Notes under the pieces: generated by a model
The model's input: only the letters and a program-made list of their open reading frames with translations
Database searches by the model: none
Told to the model about the DNA's origin: nothing
Assembly: GCF_014696225.1 (NCBI RefSeq)
Contig: NZ_JACJPV010000006.1
Coordinates: 1-64,000, forward strand
Origin: Anabaena sp. FACHB-1237
Lineage (GTDB): Bacteria > Cyanobacteriota > Cyanobacteriia > Cyanobacteriales > Nostocaceae
DNA: 64,000 nucleotides
Direction: 5' to 3'
Program-made: the position numbers and the translations under genes
Shown here: in pieces, positions 22,190 to 57,615 of the stretch
Numbering within the stretch: position 1 is the stretch's first letter
How the letters are laid out: the number at the start of each line of letters is the position of its first letter

Positions 22190-24259
22190 ATGACATATAA
22201 AGATATTCCAGAAAACCTATTCCCCATGAGAGATAACAAAGTTAATGATTTATCTGGCATTCCATTAACAGAAAATCACACTTTTGATCCTGCACATAAG
22301 GGTTATCACCAGCAAACAGTGGATAATATGGATCATCAAGAAGATAATTCCATGACCGTGGCAGACGATGATAGTAGTTTAATTTATAAATTAAATGGTA
22401 TCGCTAGAAAAATGCCTCTTTGGACTAAAAGCTGGATGCTATGGTCACTAATTTTGATTTTAATTCCTGGTAGCATCGGTTTTGTGGGGATATCCATGTT
22501 ATTTAAGTTGCCTTCATCCCCTAAATGTCCTGAAGTTTTTTGGCCTTTAGCTAGTGCTTCCGTTAGATTACATTGTGCTCAAATAGCAGCATCTAAACAA
22601 ACTATTGATGATTTATTACAAGCTATTGATTTAGTTAAACAACTACCAGAAAACCATCCTCTACGCGGCGAAATTAATAGACAATTAGAACAATGGTCAG
22701 AGGATATTTTAAAATTAGCAGATCAAAGTTTTCAAGCAGGAAATTTAGAGGAGGCGATCGCTACAGCACATAAAATTCCTCCTGATGTTAATGTTAGTCA
22801 ATTAGTAGATAAACAAATCGAAAAATGGCAATCAATTTGGTCAAAAGCTGAAGCTATTTATCAAGAAGCAGAACAAGAATTACGCCAAAGAAATTGGCAA
22901 TCTGCTTTTATGTTAACCTCTAAATTATTACGAGTTAATAACGAATATTGGGCTAGTACAAAATATGATGAATTAAATAATATTATTGTCACAACCCGGG
23001 AAGATGGCGACAAACTCTATAAGGCAGAAGCTTTAGCTAAAAACCGCAATTTGCAAAGTTTACTCCAAGCTATTAAATTAGCCAGAACGGTTAAACCCAA
23101 TAGTTATCTATATCAAAAGTCTCAAGAATTAATTACTGAATTTGCCCAAAAAATGCTAAAATTGGCACAATCTACAATGCAAGCAAAAGATGCAGATACA
23201 GCTTTAGAAATTGCTAGAAAAATTCCCCCAGTGGCAGAACTACAAGTACAAGTTGACGATTTTATTATGTTAGGAGAAGCACAAAGAAGCGCTTTCTTAG
23301 GCACAATTTCCGGACTGGAAACTGCTATTTCTCAAGCACAACAAATAGACGCTTCCAGAGAAATTTATAGTCAAGCACAAGAATTAATTGCCCGTTGGCA
23401 ATTGGAAATAGAAGATATCTCACGCTTAGAGAAAGCCCGCAATTTGGCTAGTCAAGGTACAATAAATGACTTAACCTCAGCCATTGCCGAAGCTCAACAA
23501 ATTCCTACCAATAACCCCCGCTCTCAAGAAGCTCGTAGAGAAGTGGCTAGATGGGTTGATCAAGTAGAAACTATTGAAGATCGTCCCTACATAGAACGGG
23601 CAGAACAAATCGCAGTTATGGAGGATGTTAACTCACTACAAGCAGCGATCGCGGAAGCTAGTCAAATTCGCCCTGGACGTGCACTATATTTCCAAGCTAG
23701 GCAAAAAATTCGTGACTGGACAGCAAAGGTTGAAAGAATTCAAGACCAACCACTTCTGGAACAAGCTACCGCACTGGCTGATAGTGGTAATCTTCAGGAA
23801 GCTGTGAAAACCGCTCAGAAAATAGCTGTATCTGGCAGAGCTTTATCAAAACAAGCCCAAACTGCTGTAGATACTTGGCAAGAACAAATTAACGCTCGCC
23901 AAAACTGGCAAAAAGCACAACAATTAGCATTGGCAGGTACACCAGAATCTCTATCACAAGCTATTAAACTAGCTAACAGAGTGTCAAGTCGTAATGTGTT
24001 ACGCCTAGATGTAAACATTGCTATAGATCAATGGAGTCAAGAAATATTGAATATAGCACGCTCTCAAAGTGAAGTTGATATCGCTAAAGCCATTGATATC
24101 GCAAAATTAGTCCCCGCAGGCAGTAGCGCTTACAGAGATGCCCAGCAAGAAATCCAAAACTGGCAACAATTTATGATCCCTAAATCTCTCTCTACCCCAT
24201 CTTTTCAGCCTAGTTTAGAAGCTACACCACCATTAACACCAGAATTTAGTAATCAGTAA
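22190..24259 (+). CDS. Membrane protein with tandem helical repeats, function unknown
   Basis: 689 residues. Residues 1-75 are polar and presumably cytoplasmic, then one membrane helix ('MPLWTKSWMLWSLILILIPGSIGFVGISML', about 78-105). The rest is about nine helical units of 50-65 residues. Each contains an AIxxAxxI-type helix, then Y/xxAQxxIxxW (for example 'AISQAQQIDASREIYSQAQELIARW', 'AIAEASQIRPGRALYFQARQKIRDW'). The repeats resemble TPR/Sel1-like solenoids but are not canonical TPR. The same membrane-plus-repeat arrangement forms the C-terminus of the pseudo-orthocaspase at 55858-57615. It is likely a scaffold on the periplasmic or lumenal side; this is inference. Confidence 0.82.
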   Translation: MTYKDIPENLFPMRDNKVNDLSGIPLTENHTFDPAHKGYHQQTVDNMDHQEDNSMTVADDDSSLIYKLNGIARKMPLWTKSWMLWSLILILIPGSIGFVGISMLFKLPSSPKCPEVFWPLASASVRLHCAQIAASKQTIDDLLQAIDLVKQLPENHPLRGEINRQLEQWSEDILKLADQSFQAGNLEEAIATAHKIPPDVNVSQLVDKQIEKWQSIWSKAEAIYQEAEQELRQRNWQSAFMLTSKLLRVNNEYWASTKYDELNNIIVTTREDGDKLYKAEALAKNRNLQSLLQAIKLARTVKPNSYLYQKSQELITEFAQKMLKLAQSTMQAKDADTALEIARKIPPVAELQVQVDDFIMLGEAQRSAFLGTISGLETAISQAQQIDASREIYSQAQELIARWQLEIEDISRLEKARNLASQGTINDLTSAIAEAQQIPTNNPRSQEARREVARWVDQVETIEDRPYIERAEQIAVMEDVNSLQAAIAEASQIRPGRALYFQARQKIRDWTAKVERIQDQPLLEQATALADSGNLQEAVKTAQKIAVSGRALSKQAQTAVDTWQEQINARQNWQKAQQLALAGTPESLSQAIKLANRVSSRNVLRLDVNIAIDQWSQEILNIARSQSEVDIAKAIDIAKLVPAGSSAYRDAQQEIQNWQQFMIPKSLSTPSFQPSLEATPPLTPEFSNQ

Positions 24260-55857: not shown

Positions 55858-57615
55858 TTATTTCTGTTGTTGCCATTTTTTAATGGCATCTTGAGCATCA
55901 TCATAGGCAATGGTAACATCTGGAACTAACGCAGCAGTAGCGATCGCTGACGCAAAATCTTTCTGTATTGCCCGCGCTTTAGCTAGTTCTAAAATAGCTT
56001 CACTCCATCCATTGATGGAAATTTGAGCATTTTCAAACCCTGGTTGTCCTTTGGGTATCTTTTTGGCCAGTGCAATGGCACGATTATAACTAGATGCTTG
56101 TCCTGGTATAATTAATTTTTTGGCTGCGTCTAAAAGTGTTTTGTTGCTAATAAATTGCTTCTCTGCTGTCTTCCACTTTTCTATGGCAGTCTGTACCTGA
56201 TTATATAAAGATTGTTCCTGTGTAATTACTTCAACAGCCGAAATTGCACCTTGATAATCTTCTTTTCGCGCTTTCTCTTCAGCTAACTCCAAAATTATTT
56301 GACTCCATACCTGAATATTTTCTTGAGCTTGTTCATACAAAGGTTGTTCCGGTTGTACCTTTTTAGCTGTGATAATGGCCACAGTTAGATCACTAACTTG
56401 AGTAGCACGTAGAGACATTTTCTCCAGTTCTAAAATAGCTTTTTCGCGGTTATTCCCACCACTAGTAGTATTTTCAGCATTTGGAGTAGCTTGTAATTGA
56501 ATGTTAGCAGTATGAGAGGGAGTAGTGGAAAAAATACGGAATAATCTAGGATTACGTAAAACAAAAGTTGCTAAAATCGCTACTATAGTCATACTACCAC
56601 CACCCCAAATCATAAATTGTTGCCAGATGGGGAGATTCTTTGTTGAGGTAGAAATGTTAGTTTCCGTGACTTTAGGGATATATCGCTTATTGGTAGTTGC
56701 TTCTGGAGAATTTACTAAGGTTTTATCATTCCCATTTTTGTTTAGTTCTTCAATTGGTAAGTTATGAGCAGGAGTAATGGTAGGATTAATAATAGTTTCC
56801 AAAACTGCCACTGGTTGAGGTGCAGCAGTAACAGCTGTGGCAAAACTTTCTTCAGGAAATATTACCGCTTGGGAGTCTGTATCTACCGAAATTACTGGTA
56901 AAATAGCAGGTTGGGGACTAGGAACAAATGTAACTGGATGTTGTAAAGGTCGCCAATGATGTTGACAGAGTTTAGGAGTAAGATCAGTGAGATAATGGGC
57001 TAACTCTGAAAAATTATAACCCTGATCACAGTGTAAACCTTCTAATAAAGCGGCTGTAAAAAACCCGTGGCCTAATTCTGTGCTTTCGTGGGAAAATTCC
57101 TCTGGTTGACAGGAAATAATAGCACTTTGCTGTAATTCTTCGGCAATAGCAATAATTTCTGCTCCCACCGGTGCATCTGCTTGAGTACCAAAAGCTCGGT
57201 TAATATCAAAAATAAATAGGGATTTGATACCACTCAGGTGTATACTGTGCATCAGCGATCGCAATTCAATCCCCGTTTCTACAATTTGCTCTGGGTTGCC
57301 ATCCACTGGCATTAAATAATCTTTATTTTGATAATTTACACCATAACCGCTAAAAAATAACCAGAGATAGTCCTGTGGTTGGCAACAGGCAACCAATTTT
57401 TCCATCCACTGTACAATGTTCTCCTTAGTAGGAAAAGTGGATTCATCTTGTATTGGTACAGAAGTATTAGTCATTAATAGGCAGTTTTGGGGAGGAAAAC
57501 CCGCAACATTGACTAAATACTCTTTAATAGCTTCTGCATCGGCTTCAGTACAACTCAAAGGCTGGAATAATTGATATTGATTAATACCGATGGCGATCGC
57601 CCAATAGTTTACCAT
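55858..57615 (-). CDS. Pseudo-orthocaspase with membrane anchor and helical repeats
   Basis: 585 residues. Residues 1-225 are a caspase (peptidase C14) p20-like domain. The His position reads Tyr91 ('YLWLFFSGYGVNY', usually FSGHG) and the Cys position reads Asn139 ('KSLFIFDINRAFG', usually DxCR), so proteolysis is not expected; the later 'LGHGFFTAALLEGL' is conserved. After a Pro/Thr-rich linker comes one membrane helix ('LPIWQQFMIWGGGSMTIVAILATFVL', about 330-360). About four helical repeat units of the AIxxAKKxxxxxxYxxAQxxIxxW type follow, as in the protein at 22190. Inactive orthocaspases are known in cyanobacteria. Likely a scaffold or regulator. Confidence 0.9.
   Translation of the reverse strand: MVNYWAIAIGINQYQLFQPLSCTEADAEAIKEYLVNVAGFPPQNCLLMTNTSVPIQDESTFPTKENIVQWMEKLVACCQPQDYLWLFFSGYGVNYQNKDYLMPVDGNPEQIVETGIELRSLMHSIHLSGIKSLFIFDINRAFGTQADAPVGAEIIAIAEELQQSAIISCQPEEFSHESTELGHGFFTAALLEGLHCDQGYNFSELAHYLTDLTPKLCQHHWRPLQHPVTFVPSPQPAILPVISVDTDSQAVIFPEESFATAVTAAPQPVAVLETIINPTITPAHNLPIEELNKNGNDKTLVNSPEATTNKRYIPKVTETNISTSTKNLPIWQQFMIWGGGSMTIVAILATFVLRNPRLFRIFSTTPSHTANIQLQATPNAENTTSGGNNREKAILELEKMSLRATQVSDLTVAIITAKKVQPEQPLYEQAQENIQVWSQIILELAEEKARKEDYQGAISAVEVITQEQSLYNQVQTAIEKWKTAEKQFISNKTLLDAAKKLIIPGQASSYNRAIALAKKIPKGQPGFENAQISINGWSEAILELAKARAIQKDFASAIATAALVPDVTIAYDDAQDAIKKWQQQK

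Follow-up and report, generated by a model that had tools for sequence, protein, structure and literature searches.

The window analysed here, a stretch of 64,000 nucleotides from Anabaena sp. FACHB-1237, encodes on its minus strand a caspase-fold protein in which tyrosine and asparagine (YN) stand in the columns of the catalytic histidine and cysteine (HC). The gene and its parts are:

55858..57615 (-), YN pseudo-orthocaspase gene, 585 aa plus stop, ATG start
56884..57615 (-), caspase-fold domain, residues 1-244 (PF00656, AlphaFold2, VIA-align)
57343..57345 (-), Tyr91 codon, catalytic His column (profile alignment)
57199..57201 (-), Asn139 codon, catalytic Cys column (profile alignment)
56629..56883 (-), disordered linker, about residues 245-329 (pLDDT <50 at 243-328)
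56554..56628 (-), predicted single transmembrane helix, about residues 330-354 (hydropathy and a helix in the AlphaFold2 model)
55861..56457 (-), predicted C-terminal TPR-like alpha-solenoid, residues 387-585 (AlphaFold2 model of the region alone)

An open frame of such length has a chance expectation of about 4e-19 at the given composition. Peptidase_C14 (PF00656; residues 5-196, E 4.6e-16, 59.6 bits versus a cut-off of 21.4) is the sole Pfam domain above cut-off in the 585-aa protein. In the full-length AlphaFold2 model, built with 22 aligned orthologues as input, the caspase-fold domain has a pLDDT of mostly 86-94 in ten-residue blocks (lowest 64) and the C-terminus from residue 387 forms a confident helical region. 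The top Foldseek match of the model is a metacaspase (E 3.5e-09), and VIA-align superposes it on Arabidopsis metacaspase 4 (6w8r) with Z 24.4 and rmsd 2.4 over 216 aligned residues. The p20 fold of orthocaspases and peptidase family C14 is present in the protein, as an initial annotation made from the DNA letters had claimed for this reading frame and as both the Pfam E value and the metacaspase 4 Z score bear out. With respect to a separate p10, the metacaspase fold match reaches residue 244, beyond the Pfam match, and no further Pfam domain scores above cut-off.

The same annotation had proposed that both catalytic residues are replaced and had suggested an alignment as a check. In a profile alignment with HC paralogues, FSGYG and FDINR occupy the dyad positions, Tyr91 and Asn139 fall on the catalytic dyad, and the two columns are His and Cys in 20/20 HC paralogues fetched from other cyanobacteria. 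Judged by its sequence, the protein is a pseudo-orthocaspase by virtue of the replaced His and Cys, and its YN domain is presumably proteolytically inactive. Over all p20 Cys and His columns, no intact His-Cys pair elsewhere in the domain, the counterevidence named in the annotation, is kept that the HC paralogues lack, and an active site elsewhere in p20 was ruled out on these grounds; the best-kept such residue, C169 (54/61 family rows), is also carried by the printed HC paralogues, beside the dyad. The surroundings of the lost dyad are well preserved: D26, D137, N139, R140, S168, Q225 and P227 are invariant in 22/22 aligned orthologues, and the counterparts of all but N139 are invariant in 14 HC paralogues, the retention of an acidic pocket being a point also made by Klemencic 2019 (PMC6426788). 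The tryptophan before the tyrosine (W85) is conserved and is present in the 20 HC paralogues as well.

The YN pair occurs in 80/80 named Nostocales orthologues, a count that covers close relatives, being the best 80 of 319 confirmed loci, assigned to Nostocales by their titles and in part from the same strains as genomes of the 291-genome sample. In that sample, 62 genomes have a p20-bearing member, with 50 YN, five YS and three YR dyads and one each of HN, CN, YQ and YH; three eroded members come on top of these 62. YN is found in all 31 sampled genomes of the window's own family, which the named loci suggest to be Nostocaceae; beyond this family, the pair varies (YS, YR, YH, YQ, HN, CN) in otherwise similar proteins. 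Fixed in near relatives and drifting in distant ones, the pair behaves as a site released from the demands of catalysis would.

With the dyad columns left out, a tree of 95 rows places the 20 HC rows together on a single branch (support 100/100) and the window protein within a set of 44 YN rows (support 100/100), so that on its sequence it groups with YN proteins and apart from HC ones; the 63 YN rows of this tree taken together do not form a single clade (7 changes). In pairwise comparisons of named loci at moderate divergence (775 pairs), dN/dS is 0.101 in p20, 0.079 in the transmembrane segment and 0.104 in the C-terminus, and the linker is the fastest-evolving part with 0.388 (about 0.39 among relatives). 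Both ends of the protein are kept by selection, though one is a presumed dead enzyme, and the strength of the purifying selection on p20 is consistent with a role as scaffold or ligand binder that involves no catalysis.

The class as such has already been described, as the initial annotation stated for cyanobacteria, and the window protein is a further member of the YN pseudo-orthocaspases. A table entry lists Anabaena variabilis 637718962 as a cbMC-alpha-TM protein with the H-Y and C-N replacements (Jiang 2010, PMC2853523); dyad and membrane helix of that class are identical to those of the window protein, and C-terminal repeats and regulation are not treated in the part of the paper available (Jiang 2010). 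A YN clade is described in Klemencic 2019 (PMC6426788) and Bhattacharjee 2021 (PMC8283722), with the YN type making up about 31% of pseudo-variants, 37 pseudo-orthocaspases having transmembrane helices and WP_010997820.1 being the Nostoc 7120 member in the latter. According to the accessible parts of these sources, the published clade has in common with the window protein the p20 fold, the Tyr and Asn dyad, the Trp before the Tyr, multicellular hosts and the lack of any Pfam domain beyond p20; the literature searched, as far as its text was accessible, makes no mention of a solenoid, a neighbour gene or a promoter for the YN clade.

Folded alone, the C-terminus reaches a pLDDT of 95 and a pTM of 0.80 in AlphaFold2 and can with confidence be modelled as a TPR-like solenoid, in agreement with the initial annotation, which had a membrane helix and helical repeats (here predicted at about residues 330-354 and 387-585). 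Neither Pfam nor NCBIfam has a family that scores above cut-off over residues 387-585; a profile search matched designed repeat proteins alone (best E 2.9e-5), and with the solenoid alone Foldseek found nothing at E<=0.001, the top hit being a TPR design at 0.015. Since the solenoid resembles TPR, BamD and designed repeat structures only weakly, nothing beyond 'TPR-like' is claimed. NF038257 was rejected as the identity of the solenoid, its E of 8e-4 corresponding to 19 bits versus a cut-off of 125. Many of the same W-ended helical repeats occur in a 689-aa window protein (22190-24259, +) with no Pfam or NCBIfam family above cut-off, and a profile for such repeats (A3) matches 99/291 genomes at E<=1e-12. 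The 689-aa protein in turn matches (E 2.5e-6) a Ser/Thr-kinase-like protein, so named by eye (L080:43-1839, contig C34), whose C-terminal stretch, also judged by eye, weakly resembles these repeats. A short form of the YN protein of 485-489 aa (L032, L076) lacks part of the solenoid repeats, and the partner gene and the DIF1 promoter discussed below were not found there either.

A hydrophobic segment follows p20 in 62/62 family rows with p20, the window included. The membrane helix that the annotation had singled out is thus present, but its coupling to the caspase fold is nothing peculiar to this protein, as these rows, the published H-Y C-N protein and the 37 pseudo-orthocaspases with such helices attest. 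Regarding the 'extracytoplasmic' position given to the repeats, the evidence is divided. An outside C-terminus is favoured by the lack of an N-terminal signal (a strongly hydrophobic N-terminal start is seen in just 2/145 rows), by the absence of Cys after the helix in 127/144 rows and, by analogy, by the kinase and the exported partner; Lys and Arg are, against the positive-inside rule, more numerous after the helix than before it in 104/144 rows and fewer in 17/144, these 144 rows including some near-duplicates. We place the C-terminus outside the cytoplasm only tentatively.

In most named loci the usual order is a gene for an exported-looking protein, the YN gene, a convergent Mo-nitro_C (PF06967) gene and an RNase J-like gene, the last named by eye. 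The exported-looking neighbour, for which no Pfam or NCBIfam family was found, has about 150-200 aa, is encoded some 200 bp upstream of the YN gene on the other strand and opens with a signal-like AQA-YTAR start (for example L081:7326-7772, -). Its profile (A2) matches 61/291 genomes, and of the 43 genomes that it hits at E<=1e-31, 33 show the partner adjacent to a YN-family gene at 119-767 bp, when one partner hit per genome is counted and a second hit in G284 and weaker paralogues are left out. The pairing holds in L051, L052, L053, L055, L058 and L062, where no other Nostocales neighbour was recognised. The ten partner hits that are not beside a listed YN gene comprise G027, where the partner adjoins a repeat-only protein, G170, G114 and G209, where the two genes are on different contigs, and G005, G205, G280, G002, G066 and G191, which have no listed YN gene; the list of 56 entries is without the YR genes of G002, G066 and G205, and the partner hits of these genomes lie elsewhere. 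In L070 the partner adjoins a TM-solenoid protein that lacks p20, an arrangement linking the partner to the outer half of the YN protein. The two genomes with the 490-aa short form yielded no partner, and in several Dolichospermum loci it is fragmentary or was not found.

Upstream of the relatives, the DIF1 hexamer TCCGGA lies within 400 bp in 69/80 named orthologues versus 0.04 expected per region, 276-282 bp from the start in 50 of these 69 loci and followed at fixed spacing by CTAATAA or CCAATAA in 69/69; most of the 11 named loci that lack it belong to Dolichospermum. Beyond the window's family, the hexamer is absent within 400 bp in 19/20 orthologues (one read over 248 bp only) and lies at 84 bp in one. 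As a control, the full motif was found in 72/794 upstream stretches of open reading frames, the YN genes themselves included. In 67/69 loci TCCGGA lies within the opening codons of the longest reading frame of the neighbour (in the other two no neighbour was called). Neighbour codons 16-26 over the site show pS 0.10 and pN/pS 1.3, with third positions least variable, versus pS 0.59 and pN/pS 0.14 in the mature part; this change, which is not codon-like, indicates that the DNA itself is conserved there, and translation of the neighbour may begin deeper in the frame, from a GTG or TTG around codon 32. The fixed codons under the site (ATC 71/71, CGG 69/69) were rejected as proof of a DNA constraint, as other codons of the neighbour are equally fixed (ATT 72/72 at I17, AGA 73/73 at R57).

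Within the window's family, the full motif occurs in 16/20 nifH-positive versus 3/11 nifH-negative genomes (nominal p 0.007), a correlation that was not retained, since kinship-independent pairs lend it no support (about 2 for, 0.5 against, 3.5 neutral). Of the 12 motif-negative family genomes, 10 lack TCCGGA in 600 bp and two, G172 and G089, have one elsewhere. One hexamer base is changed and the remaining promoter still recognisable in G151, G064, G101 and G243; such a hexamer with readable flanking promoter is seen in several genomes without detected nifH.

DIF1 is reported to drive heterocyst expression of hetR, patS and patX. The gene alr3676, which from locus numbering we take to be the YN-family gene of Nostoc 7120, shares with the YN loci the minus-plus-minus strand order of its region, and on this geometry and numbering it is likely a YN-family member. 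It is reported to belong to the early HetR-dependent (E-DIF) genes, to be driven by a DIF1 promoter with a listed log2 change of 3.59 and to lie antisense to all3675 and all3677 (PMC10287535); the word caspase is absent from the main text of that paper.

The published YN clade is described as limited to multicellular nitrogen fixers (Klemencic 2019, PMC6426788); here, HetR is present in 49/50 YN genomes but nifH was detected in 27/50, with 12 of the 23 misses outside the window's family. HetR_C matches 63 of the 291 sampled genomes. The family, eroded members included, is present in 60 of these 63 and in 5/228 others, the strict YN form in 49/63 and 1/228 (all raw genome counts that ignore kinship). 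Thus, the family tracks HetR, that is filamentous growth, better than nifH, and the association with nitrogen fixation given in the literature is the weaker of the two in this sample. The genome searches scored the top first-look candidates per genome (4 for the family, 8 for nifH, 9 for partner profile A2, 10 for A3), so that with so few candidates 'not found' is weaker than 'absent'. A p20 member was not found in the HetR genomes G027 (which has a repeat-only protein), G058 and G083. An exclusive restriction of the family to HetR genomes was rejected, as members occur in the HetR-less G141, G131, G080, G103 and G227. The versions in G141, G131 and G080 are strongly eroded; the strongly eroded p20-TM-repeat proteins of HetR-less genomes (L250:4404-5768, L251:3963-5189 and L252:4620-5705) are perhaps later stages of the same decay. 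PatX has been reported as coextensive with HetR.

The copy in the window departs from this pattern. It sits elsewhere than at the usual locus, adjoining a GH57-like gene (named by eye), TCCGGA is absent from the 600 bp upstream, and the partner was not found in the genome with profile A2. Membership in a HetR-dependent DIF1 regulon, judged by TCCGGA at about -35, would by sequence fit many Nostocales members but not the window gene. HetR is present in the genome; nifH was not found at E<=1e-100 in this draft of 95 contigs with 8/20 first-look candidates scored, which possibly reflects lost nitrogen fixation, a draft gap or a limit of the search. The p20 domain and the C-terminus are still intact.

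Together, the computed fold prediction, dyad loss, conservation, gene pairing and promoter motif lead us to favour, tentatively and with somewhat less than even confidence, a membrane-anchored pseudo-caspase adaptor that was recruited to heterocyst development in Nostocales; for inactivity, sidedness, ligand, partner contact and developmental role, we infer the following. An inactive caspase-fold domain, most likely cytoplasmic, would be joined across the membrane to the TPR-like solenoid by the disordered linker and one transmembrane helix. Its pocket, which keeps Asp and Ser residues around the lost dyad, may hold a basic peptide or protein segment uncut, and the solenoid may dock a partner that is exported or resides in the envelope; in many relatives this could be what the divergent neighbour encodes. 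The whole protein would then serve as an adaptor or receptor that spans the membrane. Among Nostocales that form heterocysts, the DIF1 promoter would probably turn on its synthesis early in heterocyst differentiation; in the organism of the window, with promoter and neighbour gone, at most a general envelope role would be left. Considering the sequences, a signalling adaptor is our best guess for the function. A more specific version, in which the YN protein is a dedicated receptor for developmental signals in multicellular bacteria, made from the DIF1 promoter early in the differentiating heterocyst, spanning the membrane, with a pocket holding a basic peptide and a paired exported protein reading or tuning the outer half, has a small chance of being right; that the ligand might be the RG(S/T)GR patterning peptides of PatS, PatX or HetN is speculation, raised only because the arginine pocket is kept and the distribution is shared with HetR and PatX.

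The adaptor competes with a scaffold that serves the envelope or division of filamentous cyanobacteria in general, in which the caspase fold would be a structural docking domain only and DIF1 would merely raise the level because heterocysts remodel envelope and septa. The presence of the family in 60/63 HetR genomes, 27 of these without detected nifH, the retention of the gene in the lineage of the window even though DIF1 and partner are missing there, and the weak resemblance of the solenoid to TPR and BamD folds all agree with such a scaffold; pocket residues that are invariant in the aligned orthologues, as in HC paralogues, exceed what a plain scaffold needs, and we consider it unlikely, if a serious contender. 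The initial annotation had offered a scaffold, a decoy or a ligand sensor, of which the scaffold or ligand role fits the dN/dS of p20 and the decoy is disfavoured. As a decoy or regulator of active orthocaspases, in the manner of c-FLIP on caspase-8, the protein would pair with an HC protein, which its caspase fold and the co-occurrence of both types in many genomes would allow, but in 7/31 family genomes, the window's included, the HC profile finds the YN gene only (E<=1e-15), and a similar argument for pseudo-orthocaspases is found in Klemencic 2019 (PMC6426788); we regard a decoy as improbable. In the window genome, the HC-profile search at E<=1e-15 found no HC-type p20, the YN gene alone being matched; this threshold also misses the YS-type pseudo-orthocaspase of this genome, and divergent HC proteins could be missed too. 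The search was used for absence as it matched the YN gene in all 31 family genomes; a Pfam C14 search of the window genome, which found the YS protein only and missed the YN gene, was not so used.

That the window gene is a decaying remnant, relocated and without DIF1 and partner, is a slim prospect: the loss of promoter motif, neighbour and synteny and a long end branch in the tree would be in keeping with decay, but the reading frame is fully open, p20 dN is 0.17-0.18 at saturated dS versus four Dolichospermum or Anabaena loci, and the genome's own YS pseudo-orthocaspase is about equally divergent from the same five genomes (59-64% versus 60-62%). Very improbable, finally, is a hidden enzyme in which Tyr91 and Asn139 serve other chemistry or cleavage proceeds without the dyad, for although YN is fixed in the 80/80 named loci (best 80 of 319), the drift of the pair to YS, YR, YH, YQ, HN and CN outside the window's family is unlike an active site.

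Pseudo-orthocaspases are widespread in cyanobacteria, and the accessible literature searched gives no function for the YN type and no published link of it to cell differentiation. Added here are the fixation of YN with its dN/dS, the solenoid, the pairing with an exported protein, the tracking of HetR and the conserved upstream DIF1 hexamer. Should the DIF1 site have the function here that it has for hetR, patS and patX, a dead caspase would be tied by regulation to bacterial cell differentiation, and the question why a dead protease is kept becomes testable in the established model Nostoc PCC 7120. If true, the adaptor would represent a dead protease as a signalling part in bacterial development and a regulator with a caspase fold that has no part in cell death, from a lineage whose multicellularity arose separately from that of animals.

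HetF of Anabaena 7120, which has a caspase-related fold, is needed for heterocyst initiation and has been described as a divisome component; of the septal junction proteins SepN and FraD, the former is listed with 235 aa and a transmembrane segment at 7-29. T. brucei MCA4 and c-FLIP have an architecture other than that of the YN protein. They share with it the working principle of a dead caspase fold as a regulator (via Klemencic 2019, PMC6426788) but are eukaryotic and act with true relatives. An inactive p20 is also common to the YS-type pseudo-orthocaspases and to the Tyr-Gly protein SyOC of Synechocystis, which is reported to attenuate oxidative stress; unlike the YN protein, the YS type has a TAT-like leader (Klemencic 2019, PMC6426788). 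The YS-type pseudo-orthocaspase of the window genome (FSGYG, DTSY) is encoded 2.8 kb past the window (contig C56 66817-68952, +; L001:1381-3519) and by eye shows a TAT-like leader as well.
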